This document shows positions 16,116 to 30,702 of a stretch of DNA of 38,777 nt, one piece after another. The stretch's first letter is position 1. Each line of letters begins with the position of its first letter. Position numbers and translations under genes: made by a program. The notes under the pieces were generated by a model, which saw only the letters and a program-made list of their open reading frames with translations, was not told the origin of the DNA and did no database searches. Source of the DNA: a virus; IMG/VR virus record IMGVR_UViG_3300005915_000048, positions 1 through 38,777 of that record; one strand, 5' to 3'.

Positions 16116-16309
16116 TGGGAGAAAAAGAGATAGAAGTAATACCTGCTGAGAGAACAGATAGTATTGAAGTTAATCTTGATAAGAAAGGAGCACCCTCATA
16201 TAAGATTAAAGTTTATTATAACAATGAGGAAACATCTGTACTTGAAATATCATCTAAACTTCATGCAACATATAAAGAACTTGTAGCAAAATTTGGAGGT
16301 GGCAGTTAA
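16115..16309 (+). CDS. Hypothetical protein, 64 aa
   Basis: A small gene squeezed between clamp loader and recA, overlapping both by one base or codon (TAATG junctions). The product seems to be a beta-rich domain (SYKIKVYYNNEETSVLEIS) followed by a helix and a GGGS end. Its coupling to the two neighbours suggests a role in recombination or loading, unproven. Confidence 0.6.
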   Translation: MGEKEIEVIPAERTDSIEVNLDKKGAPSYKIKVYYNNEETSVLEISSKLHATYKELVAKFGGGS

Positions 16310-18462
16310 TGTCAAAGAAAGCAGAAACAAAAACCGAAACAAAAAAGAAAGAGTTCTCGCTTGCTGATTTGGCTAAACAGATTAAAAAGGACTATGGCTC
16401 CATACATGTTGCAGCAGACAGGGAAGATCCTACTGAGTTTATATCAACAGGTAACAAGGCATTGGATTTATCTTTATCTGGAGGTATAGCTTGGGGATAC
16501 GCAGTTGAATGGTCAGGATTCAGTACGACAGGAAAAACGACTTTGATGCAAATGATGCTAGCTGATGCACAAAAACGATATGGTGCTTATGGTATATGGG
16601 TTGACAGGGAGAACTCATGGTTTAATAAAAGAGCAGAGCAATTAGGGATTGATACAAGTAATGTTTTAGTAATAAAACCTTGGGATATACCAACAGTTAC
16701 AGATGCTGCTGCTATGTTGAAAAACACATTAAGTAAATTTCCAAAGGATAAATACAAGTTTGTTGCTGTTGATTCTATATCCTCTTTTAAGAAAGGAGGT
16801 AAGATAGATAAATCGGATATGGGAAAAAAGCCACAGGAGTTACACAATCTATTTAGAGAGATACTGTCTTACTGTGATGAAAGAATGAGTGTTCATTTCT
16901 CTAACCATAGAACTTATAAGATTGGAATAATGTTTGGGTGTCTACATGCCGATTGTAATATTCCTTTTGTGGATGGTAGGTCATTTACAATACGCCAAAT
17001 TGTTGATAACAGAATTGAGGGGGAAGTTTTTGCGTATGATGAGAATTCTAATGAATTCAAACCTACAAAAATTGTAAATTGGCTTAATAATGGAAATGTT
17101 TCTAATAAAAATGATTTTGTTACTATTATCACAAATGCTATTGATACTCTAAATGGTAAATGTGGTATAACTTGTACAAAAAATCATAAAATTTTAACTG
17201 AAAGTGGTTGGATAGAAGCAAAGCATATTACAAAGGGAGATTTTGTAGTCACTAAGTATGATTCAATATTAAATAAATCATTAAAAGAATTTATTATTGG
17301 AACCTCAATTGGTGATTCATCTATAGAAATCAGAGGTAACGGAGCTTACATAAAATTAGAGAACTCTGAAAATAAAAAATATAATATATGGAAGTTGAAC
17401 AAACTTTCTAAATTTTATAAATTTAATGAAGTTAAAACTGCAAGAAATACTTATATTTTTTCTTCTACACCACTTAACTATGAACTTAAATTATTAAAAA
17501 ATAGGATTGGACACAGAAATCCAACTAAAGTAAAGAGTGGTTTTACTTGGCTATCTTTAGCTGTATTATTTATGGATGATGGTCATTATGATAGTAAATC
17601 AGGACATTGTAGAGGCTCCATAGCATTTTACAGATTTAAAAATTCTAAAATTTTAGATAACATTGCCAAAATGTTAAAGGATAATTTCAATATAGATACT
17701 TCTATTAATTACAATAATGGAAAAATAACTATTAATAAAAATTCGTTTTTATATATGTGTGAAAATATAAAACAATATATTCCACCTTGTATGCAATATA
17801 AATTACCTATAGCATACAGAGAAAAATATAGAGAATTTGATTTAGAGAGTAACCTTGTGATAAAAACAGAGTATGTTGAAGTTTTGTCTGTGACAGAGAG
17901 TTCTGAAAGAAAATTTAGGCAGACTGGTAAGTATGATATTGAGGTGGATAAGTATTCAAACTATTTAGCTGGAAATACACGTAGTGGAATAGTTGTACAT
18001 AACTCTAACACAACTACAACTGGTGGTGAGGGGCCGAAGTTTTATACAACATACAGGGTACAGTTAGAGGAATTAAGGAATATTTTAGATCCAAAAAGAA
18101 ACAAAGAGGATATAGGTAATTGGCTTAAAGCTACTGTGTTAAAAACAAGGATGGGTGATGGCAGGAGAAAGGTTTATTTTCCACATTATTTTAAGACAGG
18201 AATTCCATACTACGGCGGCTATGCTAGACTCCTTGCTGATAGAAATTATCTATATCCTAAAAACAAAAAGGAGTTTAAGTCGCTTAGTCAGGTAACTGTG
18301 AAGCATGAAATAACTGAAAAGGATGTGGAGAAAAGAGAATTTATTGAATTCAGTGAGCATGATATTGAGAAATTTCTTGAAGATCACCCAGAACTTGTGT
18401 TTGATGAATATCCTGAGTTTAATTATGATGGACTCTCAATAGAAGAGGATGAGGAGGGATAA
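16309..18462 (+). CDS. recA: RecA-type recombinase interrupted by an intein
   Basis: The precursor has 717 residues; removing the intein (211-565) leaves 362, normal for RecA. N-extein: Walker A GFSTTGKT (70-77), VAVDSISSF as Walker B, and KIGIMFG at the intein border. C-extein restarts SNTTTTGGEGPKFYTTYRVQ, so the joined sequence KIGIMFG-SNTTTTGG reproduces the bacterial RecA L2 region KIGVMFG-NPETTTGG. The protein should pair homologous DNA during phage recombination. The acidic C-terminus (SIEEDEEG) is RecA-like. It starts at a TAATG junction with the previous gene. Confidence 0.92.
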   Translation: MSKKAETKTETKKKEFSLADLAKQIKKDYGSIHVAADREDPTEFISTGNKALDLSLSGGIAWGYAVEWSGFSTTGKTTLMQMMLADAQKRYGAYGIWVDRENSWFNKRAEQLGIDTSNVLVIKPWDIPTVTDAAAMLKNTLSKFPKDKYKFVAVDSISSFKKGGKIDKSDMGKKPQELHNLFREILSYCDERMSVHFSNHRTYKIGIMFGCLHADCNIPFVDGRSFTIRQIVDNRIEGEVFAYDENSNEFKPTKIVNWLNNGNVSNKNDFVTIITNAIDTLNGKCGITCTKNHKILTESGWIEAKHITKGDFVVTKYDSILNKSLKEFIIGTSIGDSSIEIRGNGAYIKLENSENKKYNIWKLNKLSKFYKFNEVKTARNTYIFSSTPLNYELKLLKNRIGHRNPTKVKSGFTWLSLAVLFMDDGHYDSKSGHCRGSIAFYRFKNSKILDNIAKMLKDNFNIDTSINYNNGKITINKNSFLYMCENIKQYIPPCMQYKLPIAYREKYREFDLESNLVIKTEYVEVLSVTESSERKFRQTGKYDIEVDKYSNYLAGNTRSGIVVHNSNTTTTGGEGPKFYTTYRVQLEELRNILDPKRNKEDIGNWLKATVLKTRMGDGRRKVYFPHYFKTGIPYYGGYARLLADRNYLYPKNKKEFKSLSQVTVKHEITEKDVEKREFIEFSEHDIEKFLEDHPELVFDEYPEFNYDGLSIEEDEEG
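16939..18003 (+). mobile_element. RecA intein with LAGLIDADG endonuclease
   Basis: 355 residues (211-565 of the precursor). Cys1 begins CLHADCNIPFVDGRSFTI (block A). Block B contains T-x-x-H in CTKNHKILTESGW. A LAGLIDADG endonuclease has FIIGTSIGDSS (about 328) and LAVLFMDDGHY (about 415), each with the acidic residue. The C-terminal splice region reads YDIEVDKYSNYLA, then VVHN with Ser as the +1 residue. All splicing residues are present, so it is probably active. The site is in the L2 DNA-binding loop, a conserved spot used by other RecA inteins. Confidence 0.92.
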
Positions 18463-23977: not shown

Positions 23978-26900
23978 ATGCCTGAACTTAGTAGTAATGC
24001 TAATGCTGTAGTTGCAAAAAGATACTTCGAAGATAGTGAGATTTCATGGGAGGGCTTAAGTAGGAGAGTAGGTGAGGCTAATGCTGTAAATGAAAAGGAG
24101 AGAGTTAAATACGAGAATTTATTTAGTAATGAAATATTTGATATGAATTTCATACCTGCGGGTAGGATATTAAGAAATTCAGGCAAACCAAAACAAAGTA
24201 TGCTCAATTGTGCCTGTCTTCCAATAGGAGATTCAATAGAGGCTATTGGTGAAACAATTAAGAATGCACTAATTATGTGGTCTTATGGTGCAGGAATAGG
24301 TATAGATTTCTCTCCACTAAGAGAGAAGGGGAGAAAATTAGCATCTAAGGGTGGTGTTTCTAGTGGTATGTTAAGTTTTCTAGAAGCCATAGATTACGTA
24401 GCCCATACGATAGAAACGGGAGGGCAAAGAAGGTCTGGGCTATTGGGGATGCTATCTATATCTCATCCCGAAATATTTGATTTTATAAACGCCAAACAGA
24501 AACCGGGAGTCTTACCATATTGTAATTTATCTGTAGCTATACCTAACAATTTTATAGATGCTGTAAATGAGGATAAAGAGTGGGATCTATTGTTTGCAGG
24601 ACAGAAAGTAAGAACAGTAAGTGCTGTAGAGTTATGGAGAGAAATACTGACAAATATGATGAATCATGGTGAGCCTGGTATTATTATGATAGATAATATG
24701 AGAAAAAATAATTCATATTATTGTTACCCAATCTCTGCCCCAAACCTCTGCTTAACGGGTGATACAAAAATAGCTGTAGCGGATGGAAGAGGTGATGTAT
24801 CAATAAAAGATCTTGCTGATAAAAAGGAAGACATTCCAGTATTCTGTACAAATTACAGTGGAGAGGTTGTTATTCGTCAAATGAGAAATCCGAAAATAAC
24901 ACGAAAACAGGCTAAAATACTTAAAGTTAAATTTGATGATGGTTCTTATTTTAGAGGTACAGAAGATCACGAAATAAAATTATTAGATGGAAAACCAATA
25001 AAACTAAAGGATATCAAGATTGGAAGTAGAGTATCTCATCTAACAAGATACAAATTAGCAAATACAAGAGCAAAAAAGAATACACCCTATTGGTTTTGGA
25101 ATAGAGGATCTGCATTTCAGAAATCTGAACATAGAATAGTATATGAACACTATTTTGGCAAGATAGAAGATAACTATATTATTCATCATAAGGATTTTGA
25201 TAGTTTGAATAATATTCCAAAAAATTTAGAGAAATTACACAAGAATAAACATGTAGAATTACATGCAAAAATTTCTACAGTTGGAGAAAAAAATGGTAGA
25301 TATAAAGGATACACCCAATCAGCAATATTTGATATTGCTGTAAATTATTCCTCACAATTAGGTAGAAGAGTAACAAAAGAAGAGTGGGGACAATATTGTA
25401 AATTAAATAATTTACCCTATAGTGAATATAGTATACATCCCTGTAAATCAGTTAATAATTTTTTATTAAAAGCTGCTGTTACTGCACAAACTATGTTAAA
25501 CCCTGATATCTATATTTATAAAAATTCAGCAGAAGCTAGAGAATACAAAAGATATCTAAAACTTATAGATGAAACTGATTTAGATATATTTTTCAGTAAT
25601 AGTAGTATTTATGTTAATAAAATATGTGAAGGATGTGATAAAGTTTTTGCAGTAAAGTGGGGTAAAAGAAATAACAGTTTTTGTTCAACCACATGTGCGA
25701 ATAGGTATATAGCAAACAGTAATAATGTGAAAGCCTATTACAAAACTAAACAAATTATAGTTAAGGAAAAACAAGTTAATGTATTTTTAAAATTAAGAGA
25801 TGTTTTAAACAGAACTCCTTTAATAAAAGAATGGAAAAATCGATGTAAAGAAGTAGGAATACCCTATAGATTGCACTTTAATTCATTTAAAACATATGCT
25901 GATTTGAAAGAGGCAGCATTGTCTGAGAATTTTAAAGTTGTATCTGTGAAGCATGACGGATATGAGGATGTCTATAATGGTGCAGTAGATGAATTTCACA
26001 ATTATTTTGTAGTTGTAAATAGTACAGATAATAGAAAAAAGATAATAAATTCAATGAATTGTTCCGAACTCCCGTTACCAGCGTATGGGGTTTGTGATTT
26101 AGGAAGTTTAGTATTACCAAACTTTATTTCTGGCAGAAGTACTAATTGGAAAAAACTAGAGGATTCAATATATCTAGCTGTACGATTCTTGGATAATGTT
26201 TTAGATGTAAACTATTTTCCAATAAGGCAGATGGATGTTGTTGCAAAAGATATCAGAAAGATAGGTCTAGGAACTATGGGATTACACGATTATCTGATGC
26301 TGAAACAGATACGTTATGGTTCTGATAAATCAATAGAAGAGATAGAAAAGCTGTATAAGTTTATAAGAAATGTTGCGTACCAAGCCTCTATAGAATTAGC
26401 TGTTGAAAAAGGAGCATTTCCAAGATTCTCTCCTAACGAATTTGGGAAGGCTTCATTTATAAGAAAATTACCACCAAAACTTAGATTGGAAATAAGAGAT
26501 AAGGGAATTCGAAACAATAGTATATTATGTGCAGCACCAGTTGGTACTACATCATTAATTCCAGAAGTGTCATCAGGTGTAGAGCCTGTTTTTGCATTAG
26601 CTTGTAGAAGAAAGGATAGAGTTTCAGATAGAGTTTATATACATCCACAATATTTAAATTATATTGAGTCGAACGAGAAGAAACCAGATTGGTTAGTAGA
26701 TTCCTCTGACTTAAAACCGGAAGATCATTTGGATGTACAAAGTACAATACAAATGTACCTAGATAATGCAATATCTAAAACTATAAATTTTCCAGAGTCT
26801 GTTACAGTTGATAATTTGTCAAAACTTTTATTGGAGTACGCACATAATTTAAAAGGTCTAACAATATTGGTCGATAAAGCAAGAGGAGATCAAGTTTTAA

Positions 26901-27007
26901 ATAGATTAACTAAACAAGAGGCTAAAGAATTCCTGAAGAAGGATAACTTTAATACATCTGAAGATGTGGTAGATATAGAATGTAGCACAGGATCTTGTGA
27001 CATATAG
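23978..27007 (+). CDS. Ribonucleotide reductase large subunit (class II-like) with intein
   Basis: The precursor has 1009 residues; splicing out 258-694 leaves 572. It reduces ribonucleotides to deoxyribonucleotides. Seen: MLNCACL (Cys77, redox partner), RRSGLLGMLSISHPEI, the split N-L-C-S-E active-site motif (Cys695 as thiyl Cys), YGVCDLGS (second redox Cys), the PVGTTSLIPEVSSGVEPVFA loop, and a C-terminal C-x4-C pair (1002, 1007). The single-gene layout without a visible beta subunit and the SHPEI/GTTSLIP pattern favour the B12-dependent class II type (NrdJ); class I is not excluded because nrdB could lie outside the window. There is no N-terminal ATP-cone. Confidence 0.88.
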   Translation: MPELSSNANAVVAKRYFEDSEISWEGLSRRVGEANAVNEKERVKYENLFSNEIFDMNFIPAGRILRNSGKPKQSMLNCACLPIGDSIEAIGETIKNALIMWSYGAGIGIDFSPLREKGRKLASKGGVSSGMLSFLEAIDYVAHTIETGGQRRSGLLGMLSISHPEIFDFINAKQKPGVLPYCNLSVAIPNNFIDAVNEDKEWDLLFAGQKVRTVSAVELWREILTNMMNHGEPGIIMIDNMRKNNSYYCYPISAPNLCLTGDTKIAVADGRGDVSIKDLADKKEDIPVFCTNYSGEVVIRQMRNPKITRKQAKILKVKFDDGSYFRGTEDHEIKLLDGKPIKLKDIKIGSRVSHLTRYKLANTRAKKNTPYWFWNRGSAFQKSEHRIVYEHYFGKIEDNYIIHHKDFDSLNNIPKNLEKLHKNKHVELHAKISTVGEKNGRYKGYTQSAIFDIAVNYSSQLGRRVTKEEWGQYCKLNNLPYSEYSIHPCKSVNNFLLKAAVTAQTMLNPDIYIYKNSAEAREYKRYLKLIDETDLDIFFSNSSIYVNKICEGCDKVFAVKWGKRNNSFCSTTCANRYIANSNNVKAYYKTKQIIVKEKQVNVFLKLRDVLNRTPLIKEWKNRCKEVGIPYRLHFNSFKTYADLKEAALSENFKVVSVKHDGYEDVYNGAVDEFHNYFVVVNSTDNRKKIINSMNCSELPLPAYGVCDLGSLVLPNFISGRSTNWKKLEDSIYLAVRFLDNVLDVNYFPIRQMDVVAKDIRKIGLGTMGLHDYLMLKQIRYGSDKSIEEIEKLYKFIRNVAYQASIELAVEKGAFPRFSPNEFGKASFIRKLPPKLRLEIRDKGIRNNSILCAAPVGTTSLIPEVSSGVEPVFALACRRKDRVSDRVYIHPQYLNYIESNEKKPDWLVDSSDLKPEDHLDVQSTIQMYLDNAISKTINFPESVTVDNLSKLLLEYAHNLKGLTILVDKARGDQVLNRLTKQEAKEFLKKDNFNTSEDVVDIECSTGSCDI
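24749..26059 (+). mobile_element. Ribonucleotide reductase intein with HNH endonuclease
   Basis: 437 residues (258-694). Cys1 starts CLTGDTKIAVADGRGDVSIK (block A). RGTEDHEIKL holds the block B T-x-x-H. A HNH endonuclease part centres on IIHHKDFDSLNNIPKNL (about 398-414), and a four-Cys zinc motif (CEGCDK...CSTTC) follows. Block F is EDVYNGAVDEFHNYFVVVNS. The C-terminal residues are Ser-Met-Asn followed by Cys+1, so the usual penultimate His is Met. The site lies directly before the reductase catalytic cysteine. Confidence 0.9.
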
Positions 27008-27009
27008 AA

Positions 27010-27085
27010 TGACACGTAGCTCAGTTGGCAGAGCAGGTGATTGTTAATCACAAGGTCGCAGGTTCAAGTCCTGCCGTGTCAGCCA
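27010..27085 (+). tRNA. tRNA-Asn (GTT anticodon)
   Basis: Acceptor TGACACG/CGTGTCA, discriminator G and encoded CCA. D-stem GCTC/GAGC, anticodon arm GGTGA-TTGTTAA-TCACA (last pair mismatched, anticodon GTT) and T-arm GCAGG-TTCAAGT-CCTGC. Three bases after the reductase stop codon. It appears functional. Confidence 0.93.
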
Positions 27086-27100
27086 TTAAATGGAGAAAAG

Positions 27101-27262
27101 ATGAATTTTATTAAAAGATTAATTGTACTAATTGTAGAAATATTTAGATATCCAACTTATACTTCATTTATTAAAGAGAACCGAGATGGTTCTTTTGAAG
27201 TTGTCAGATGGAGATTTGGGAGGAAAGACAAAGAGATTGTTGGTACTTATTTTAAAAAATGA
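27101..27262 (+). CDS. Small protein between two tRNAs, 53 aa
   Basis: ATG 27101 follows ATGGAGAAAAG; the longer in-frame version would start inside tRNA-Asn. Begins MNFIKRLIVLIVEIFRY, a hydrophobic segment that could be a membrane anchor or amphipathic helix, followed by a beta-like stretch (SFEVVRWRFG). The stop TGA overlaps the first bases of tRNA-Gln. Confidence 0.55.
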   Translation: MNFIKRLIVLIVEIFRYPTYTSFIKENRDGSFEVVRWRFGRKDKEIVGTYFKK

Positions 27263-27332
27263 CATGTCGCTTAGTTGGTAAAGCATGTGGCTTTGAACCA
27301 CAAGATCGTAGGTTCGAGTCCTACCATGTCAT
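27260..27332 (+). tRNA. tRNA-Gln (TTG anticodon)
   Basis: Acceptor TGACATG/CATGTCA with U1-A72 as is usual for tRNA-Gln, discriminator T, no encoded CCA. D-stem GCTT/AAGC, anticodon arm TGTGG-CTTTGAA-CCACA (anticodon TTG), T-arm GTAGG-TTCGAGT-CCTAC. Fully paired, likely functional after CCA addition by the host. Confidence 0.93.
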
Positions 27333-27352
27333 CTACTGTGAAAAGGAGTGTA

Positions 27353-29535: not shown

Positions 29536-30702
29536 TTGTCAAAGAAATTTACATATGAATTTGTAAAATCAGAATTTGAGAAGGAGGGGTATACTCTACT
29601 ATCAACTGAATATAAAGATAATCGTACAAAATTATATTATATATGTCCAATTGGACATAGGTGGTCAATAACATATGGAAGTTTTGCTTCTGGTAGGAGA
29701 TGTAATTTTTGTGCTATAGATTACAAAGCAAATAAAAGAAAGCTAACATACGAATCTGTAAAAAAACAATTTGAAAAAAGAGGATATACTCTTCTTTCTC
29801 AAACATATAAAAACTCTCATACTAAACTAAAGTATATGTGTGACAACAAACATATAAGACTAATTGCATATAATAGTTTTCAACAAGGACATGGGTGTAG
29901 TATTTGTGCTACAAAATTAAATTCTGAAAGACAGAGATTTTCTTATGATTATATAAAATCAATATTTAATAAAGAGAATTATACTCTATTATCTGAAAAT
30001 TATATAAATGCTAATCAAAAATTAGATTTTATTTGTCCAAATAATCATAAAGGATCAATTACTTATGGTGATTTCAAAAGTGGGTATAGATGTAGGTGGT
30101 GTTATTTAGAAAAAAATAGTGGGAAAAATCATTATTACTGGAAAGGTGGTGTTACAGAACTAAACCTTCCTGTATATAACACTTATGCACATAGAATAAA
30201 TTGGTGTGAAGAAACTAGAAGAGATCCTGAAAACAATGTTTTATTACAAGTCAAATGTACTGAATCATCATGTAGAAAATGGTTTACACCAACGATGAAA
30301 CAAATTTGTCATAGAATAGGGGCACTAAATTCAGAAGATGGATTTGAGAATAGACTATATTGCTCTGATGAATGTAAAGGGAATTGTTCAATATATCATA
30401 AAAAAAATTACCCAAAAGGATTCAAACACGATTACTATAGAGAAGTCCAATCTGAGCTAAGGGATATGGTTTTAGAACGAGATGAATATATGTGTCAAAG
30501 ATGTTGGGCTAAGGATAAGCTACAGTGCCATCATTATGAAAGTATATATTTTAATCCAATTATGTCTGCAGACATTGAAATGTGTGTGACATTGTGTAAA
30601 AAATGTCACAAGCTAGCACACGGTGAAGTTGGTTGCAGACCAATTGATTTAACAAGAGAAAGTTTATGCAAAACAGCAAAAGCAAAAGGAGAAAAACCAT
30701 GA
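29536..30702 (+). CDS. HNH endonuclease with three zinc-finger repeats
   Basis: 388 residues, TTG start with AAAGGGGGAATGATTAAAA upstream. Residues about 5-175 are three related repeats of 55-60 residues, each with a YTLLS start, a C-P/D-x-x-H segment, a W/F-x-x-YxSF strand and a C-x2-C pair (RRCNFC, HGCSIC, YRCRWC). A linker YYWKGGVTELNLPVYNTYAH (about 199-218) leads to a C-terminal HNH domain: CQRC, HHYES and CKKCHKLAHG (about 320-365), which should bind a metal and nick DNA. The repeats are probably sequence-reading zinc fingers. It is likely a free-standing homing endonuclease inserted after the phosphoesterase gene. Confidence 0.8.
   Translation: MSKKFTYEFVKSEFEKEGYTLLSTEYKDNRTKLYYICPIGHRWSITYGSFASGRRCNFCAIDYKANKRKLTYESVKKQFEKRGYTLLSQTYKNSHTKLKYMCDNKHIRLIAYNSFQQGHGCSICATKLNSERQRFSYDYIKSIFNKENYTLLSENYINANQKLDFICPNNHKGSITYGDFKSGYRCRWCYLEKNSGKNHYYWKGGVTELNLPVYNTYAHRINWCEETRRDPENNVLLQVKCTESSCRKWFTPTMKQICHRIGALNSEDGFENRLYCSDECKGNCSIYHKKNYPKGFKHDYYREVQSELRDMVLERDEYMCQRCWAKDKLQCHHYESIYFNPIMSADIEMCVTLCKKCHKLAHGEVGCRPIDLTRESLCKTAKAKGEKP

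Follow-up and report, generated by a model that had tools for sequence, protein, structure and literature searches.

Does an intein that lacks the customary penultimate histidine, and that sits directly before the thiyl cysteine of a ribonucleotide reductase, hold its host enzyme back? Accounts of splicing usually count the penultimate histidine (His-G6) among the working parts of the reaction and treat inteins that lack it as uncommon exceptions. The question is raised by our window, a stretch of 38,777 nucleotides (IMG/VR virus record IMGVR_UViG_3300005915_000048, a fragment), in which the initial annotation had suggested that the penultimate methionine of such an intein, Met436, may slow splicing and so leave dNTP synthesis dependent on it. 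From comparisons of sequences, we consider the element likely to be a class 1 HNH intein, functional and mobile, that occupies the NrdJ thiyl-Cys site and belongs to a clade without His-G6 and with Asn rather than Asp at position F:4; no regulation is required to account for Met436.

The host gene is a single open frame at 23978-27007 (+), whose 1009 residues represent an intein-interrupted class II ribonucleotide reductase (NrdJ), as identified by TIGR02504 (NrdJ_Z; E 3e-121, 406 bits compared to a cut-off of 399.95) and by PF02867 (E 1e-89). The insert is an HNH intein that begins Cys-Leu-Thr-Gly-Asp-Thr and ends Ile-Ile-Asn-Ser-Met-Asn, followed by Cys-Ser-Glu, directly before the catalytic cysteine (Table 1). 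The joined exteins (572 residues) read ...APNL/CSELPLPAYGVCDLGS across the junction (the slash marks the splice point here and below) and match T. maritima (Thermotoga maritima) NrdJ 1xje at E 3.5e-74. In this alignment, Asn-Leu-Cys-Ser-Glu of the window reductase falls on Asn-Pro-Cys-Gly-Glu of 1xje. Of the cysteines, +1 aligns with C322, that of CDL with C333 and Cys78 of the extein with C134; C322 is the thiyl cysteine of the T. maritima enzyme, and C333 and C134 are its redox pair. Since the catalytic Cys/Asn/Glu set is complete, with no active-site residue missing, the spliced enzyme should be active. The unspliced precursor, by the same alignment, cannot be, because Cys+1 is also the thiyl cysteine. 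Thus, the initial annotation was right about the intein itself (24749-26059, ending Met-Asn), about the intact T-x-x-H motif of block B (T71-E-D-H74), and about the dual role of Cys+1, which precludes an active reductase before splicing.

Table 1. Features of the intein-interrupted nrdJ gene, in coordinates of the window.
Feature	Coordinates	Strand	Basis
N-extein of NrdJ, 257 residues, ending ...ISAPNL	23978..24748	+	TIGR02504/PF02867 matches; 1xje alignment
Intein, 437 residues, Cys1 to Met436-Asn437	24749..26059	+	Frame; TIGR01445 intein_Nterm E 4e-9; AF2 Hint fold
Cys1 (TGC), first splicing nucleophile, block A	24749..24751	+	Cys in 100/100 of family
Block B, Thr71-Glu-Asp-His74	24959..24970	+	Thr and His each in 100/100 of family
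Glu75, position B:11	24971-24973	+	Family alignment
HNH homing endonuclease core, intein residues 126-173	25124..25267	+	PF13392 HNH_3 E 1e-9, residues 128-168
First short helical repeat after HNH core, LGRRVTKEEWGQYCKLNNLPY	25358..25420	+	Sequence; pattern retained in consensus of long family members
Putative zinc-ribbon-like CxxC...CxxxC insert	25625..25696	+	Sequence; CExC/FCSxxC in consensus of long members
Second short helical repeat, LNRTPLIKEWKNRCKEVGIPY	25805..25867	+	Sequence
Block F, DVYN410...FH417N, with Asn at F:4 and His at F:13	25967..26017	+	Family counts; DnaE intein alignment (VYD...HN)
Block G, KIINSMN, with penultimate Met436 (ATG 26054-26056)	26039..26059	+	Sequence; G:6 never His in family
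Asn437 (AAT), terminal intein residue	26057-26059	+	Sequence
Cys+1 (TGT), reductase thiyl cysteine, equivalent of Tm NrdJ C322	26060..26062	+	1xje alignment; Cys in 100/100 of family
C-extein of NrdJ, 315 residues and stop, ending ...CSTGSCDI	26060..27007	+	Profile matches; 1xje alignment

The anatomy of the intein is that of class 1, with Cys1, Cys+1, Thr-x-x-His in block B, a C-terminal Asn437 and a predicted Hint fold. The AF2 model (built with 40 family rows, from scan loci only) has a mean pLDDT of 87.4, with the splicing domain mostly above 90, and its closest solved structures are Ssp DnaB (Z 19.8), NrdJ-1 (Z 19.2), Ssp DnaE (Z 18.6) and Npu DnaE (Z 18.4). An HNH nuclease lies inside the Hint domain, as in HNH homing inteins, and its His pair is nearly invariant in relatives. 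The penultimate His, which is common (in about 95%) but not defining among class 1 inteins, is absent. In addition, F:4 is noncanonical: Asn410 aligns on the block F Asp of DnaE inteins, Asp being usual at this position, and His417 aligns on their block F His. A class 3 intein is ruled out by the presence of Cys1 and by Asn410, rather than Cys, at F:4. We rejected an intein end at VVVN/S (residue 424), because it would leave 13 surplus residues and break the N-L-C motif; nor is this an allele at the NrdJ-1 insertion site, between C and S of N-P-C-S-E, since the window intein sits before the Cys.

Neither the window intein alone nor the whole ORF brought up anything close when viral contigs were scanned. 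A family profile, made from this intein together with six relatives, detected about 196 stretches in viral contigs, almost all of them NrdJ with an intein at N-P/C-G-E; the best 80 of these 196 loci, by likeness to the query, were used. A second profile found about 55 loci in bacterial and archaeal genomes, with hosts among Desulfobacterota, Chloroflexota, Acidobacteriota, Lokiarchaeota, Heimdallarchaeota, Woesearchaeota and others. Removal of duplicates left 113 distinct inteins, 100 without the penultimate His and 13 with it. Cys1, Thr-B7, His-B10 and Cys+1 are each found in all 100 His-less members, as is Asn at F:4, although the F:4 counts of the cellular loci are biased because V-Y-N was part of one of the two patterns in the genome scan; those of the viral loci, from which most of the members come, are not, since the peptide patterns of that scan were N-terminal only and took no account of blocks F and G. 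His at F:13 is present in 99 of the 100, and the terminal residue is Asn in 63 and Gln in 37.

At G:6, by comparison, the same 100 inteins carry Lys (36), Ala (18), Leu (14), Arg (14), Phe (5), Met (3), and then Glu, Pro, Cys, Gly, Thr, Ser and others. Since the position varies so freely, it looks to have lost its role rather than to act as a tuned brake. The ending N-S-M-N of the window intein resembles N-N-L-N, I-N-Q-L-N, I-N-T-F-N and N-T-M-Q of its relatives. Residues other than His occur at G:6 in about 5% of functional inteins, and restoring the His benefits some inteins and harms others (PMC4031507); in PMC5050341, a native phage intein with penultimate Gly is fully spliced at time zero, and its His mutant needs more than 5 h to reach about 50%. 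Because inteins without His do splice, and because the His-less state is shared across the clade, the proposals that Met436 slows splicing and that it makes dNTP synthesis conditional are left without support, although the window intein may nonetheless splice slowly.

How, then, might splicing proceed? In the reading that we prefer, of a functional class 1 intein, Cys1 would undergo the N-S shift with the aid of Thr71 and His74, the N-extein would pass to Cys+1, Asn437 would cyclise, probably aided by His417 of block F and not by residue 436, and an S-N shift would then complete the motif N-L-C-S-E, thiyl Cys included. His-F13 is the proposed base for Asn-G7 (PMC4031507), and the role of His-G6 can pass to the block F His (PMC5050341). 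Two things would explain why the intein persists: an imprecise loss at the thiyl-Cys codon would destroy the enzyme, and the intein nuclease could home.

Two positions count against this reading. A basic residue at B:11 has been proposed to aid Asn cyclisation in Ssp DnaE, which lacks His-G6 (PMC4031507), and Lys or Arg occupies B:11 in 86 of the 100 His-less inteins, where most of the His-type relatives have Leu or Pro, but the window intein has Glu75 and so is without this aid. We rejected a basic B:11 residue as the compensation for the missing His: it would suit 86% of the family, yet the window intein lacks it, and the residue at B:11 shows no dependence on the type of residue at G:6. Residue 395 departs from the clade as well, being His in 96 of the 100 and Phe here. 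Because of these two positions, the window intein is an outlier in its clade by sequence and may splice differently from its relatives.

We considered that the missing histidine might slow Asn cyclisation such that a signal (redox, pH or temperature) gates the reductase. Some other inteins are known to splice conditionally (PMC7360933; PMC6195587), the slowest step is often cyclisation (PMC4031507), oxidation could in principle reach Cys1 and the thiyl Cys+1, and the changes at B:11 and 395 could weaken catalysis. We think such gating unlikely, given the freedom of G:6 throughout the clade, the complete splicing of the His-less phage intein tested in PMC5050341, which an added His slowed, and the quick supply of dNTPs that a lytic phage would presumably need. 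It is similarly doubtful that the intein is degenerating, with block G (KIINSMN) in decay and the reductase made poorly or not at all. Block G does differ from G-I-L-V-H-N, and two more consensus residues of the family are gone (B:11 and 395), but the nucleophiles, the HNH core and the 1009-codon frame are all intact, and block G is equally odd (VNNLN, INQLN, INTLN, NTMQ) in many phage and cellular relatives.

The pairing of F:4 with G:6 bears on the chemistry. Asn-F4 accompanies the absence of His-G6 in 100 of 100 cases compared to 0 of 13 among the His-type relatives, all 13 of which have Asp at F:4. It occurs only with Cys+1, and the sister group with Ser+1 retains Asp and His. This sister group consists of bacterial NrdJ inteins of the same type at NPC/SE, which make up 8 of the 13 His-type relatives and form a separate group on the tree. 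Among all inteins seen here, a non-Asp residue at F:4 never occurs with a penultimate His, although the converse is not true. We do not take the link as independent evidence of coevolution: when blocks F and G are left out of the tree, a single branch has the His-type rows on one side, and since a single switch explains the data, the link has no independent replicate. A changed chemical route, in which Cys+1 or the C-terminal amide would be activated in a way undescribed for class 1, seems decidedly improbable, even though Asn-F4 is invariant and tied to the missing His and the residues listed for F:4 are Asp, then Cys, then Trp (PMC4031507), since a single switch suffices, Asp-F4 is found in other lineages beside a Gly or Ser at G:6, and class 1 chemistry is the simplest reading of an invariant Cys1. 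In a bolder reading, which we think less likely than not, the NrdJ thiyl-Cys inteins with Asn-F4 and no His-G6 would form a distinct mechanistic variant in phages, bacteria and Asgard archaea, in which the block F His (often with a basic B:11) and Cys+1 would serve both transesterification and Asn/Gln cyclisation.

We compared substitution rates in close pairs of relatives, the window intein itself having no close relative. In these pairs, dN/dS is 0.03-0.15 in the Hint region and mostly 0.05-0.23 in the nuclease region, similar to the exteins, with only some ratios usable because many pairs are saturated in dS. In several pairs, dS is lower in the intein than in the exteins (0.4-0.5 compared to 2.3 for L128/L133), which is consistent with lateral spread. 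Since purifying selection is combined with intein dS below that of the exteins, we read the clade as maintained and mobile; splicing speed cannot be read from dN/dS.

The insertion site is used well beyond this clade. The junction N-L-C-x-x-G-D-T-K occurs in at least 119 stretches of viral contigs, nearly all reductases and many of them NrdA with split inteins. Because more than 100 viral contigs share it, it is far beyond chance; the reductase thiyl-Cys site is a viral intein hot spot. Narrower searches of viral contigs gave no match for Met-Asn-Cys-x-Glu in a reductase context and only three chance matches for Pro-Asn-Leu-Cys. A survey of reductase inteins at the same site had been proposed as a check on Met436. 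Among the matches listed, 26 distinct cis junctions at the site (from the window, viral and annotated phage loci) end His-Asn (14), Gly-Asn (5), Ser-Asn (2), Met-Asn (2), Lys-Asn (1), Gly-Gln (1) or Ser-Gln (1), so that the penultimate His is missing in 12, and Met-Asn is confined to the window intein and one other. That other (IMGVR_UViG_3300026518_000006) is an intein of a different type at the same reductase site, with Cys at F:4 and the end GVMTMN/CTES. Genuine split inteins at the site end His-Asn among the matches listed, with Gly-Asn in Thermus phage TSP4 as the one exception. Among unrelated inteins at this site, Asp-F4 is also found where G:6 is Ser or Gly, and the LAGLIDADG-like ones have Cys-F4 where G:6 is Gly, Ser or Met. 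Many of the split inteins are in phage NrdA at NL/C; their frame stops about 105-140 residues after Cys1, and the C-half with LVHN/C is located elsewhere. Four loci carry a second NrdJ intein at another site, with the canonical end SHN/T, beside the His-less thiyl-Cys intein. Inteins in general tend to be inserted at catalytic sites (PMC5874633; PMC5050341), and the intein of Aquifex NrdB lies between two metal ligands (PMC8772380).

The known systems most like the window intein are the NrdJ inteins at NP/C (the huge phage LR756501 and MAGs of Desulfococcaceae, Anaerolineae, Lokiarchaeota and Woesearchaeota), which share the site before the thiyl Cys, the HNH nuclease, a VADGR motif, Asn-F4 and the lack of a penultimate His; identity is about 25-41%, however, and the window has N-L rather than N-P before the junction and Glu at B:11. 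The archaeal NrdJ model NF006207 (PRK08332) has about 363 positions between the reductase halves in the same place as the window intein, a likeness of model layout. The HNH inteins of Ackermannviridae NrdA (Dickeya LIMEstone1, Salmonella pertopsoe, Vibrio YC) share the site (NL/CLE) and the HNH type, but interrupt a class I reductase and have Asp-F4 and the penultimate His. NrdJ-1, a fast split intein at N-P-C/S-E (PMC13123727; PDB 8ubs, native exteins NPC/SEI), interrupts the same reductase motif and has the same Hint fold (Z 19.2), but it lies one residue later, after the thiyl Cys, has Ser+1, is split and has no HNH (PMC13123727). Class 1 mycobacteriophage inteins with penultimate Gly, Lys or Ser likewise lack His-G6, and the native Gly form splices completely; they occupy other host proteins and other insertion sites, and the accessible text does not mention Asn-F4 (PMC5050341).

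Inteins, the insertion principle, HNH inteins, the missing penultimate His and a C-terminal Gln are all already known. We found no description of the clade or of its invariant Asn-F4 in the literature searched, which mostly lay outside subscription papers and the work on the Pyrococcus abyssi reductase intein. The interest thus lies in the clade and not in Met436. At least 100 distinct inteins that never have His-G6 and always have Asn-F4 amount to a natural experiment on what Asn/Gln cyclisation needs, and in phages, bacteria and Asgard archaea alike the reductase radical Cys has a second role as a nucleophile in splicing; a single odd residue should not be taken as regulation.

The window also contains a second intein, of 355 residues with LAGLIDADG_2, at 16939-18003 (+) within the ORF of a RecA/UvsX-like recombinase (16309-18462). 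It has the canonical end Val-His-Asn/Ser, and therefore the same phage carries one intein with the penultimate His and one without. Genes for tRNA-Asn (27010-27085) and tRNA-Gln (27260-27333) lie directly downstream of nrdJ, with those for tRNA-Ser and tRNA-Pro elsewhere in the window. The HNH endonuclease encoded at 29536-30702 has a CapR domain (PF21817) and, at residues 304-364, a weak likeness to IscB (E 2.5e-5).
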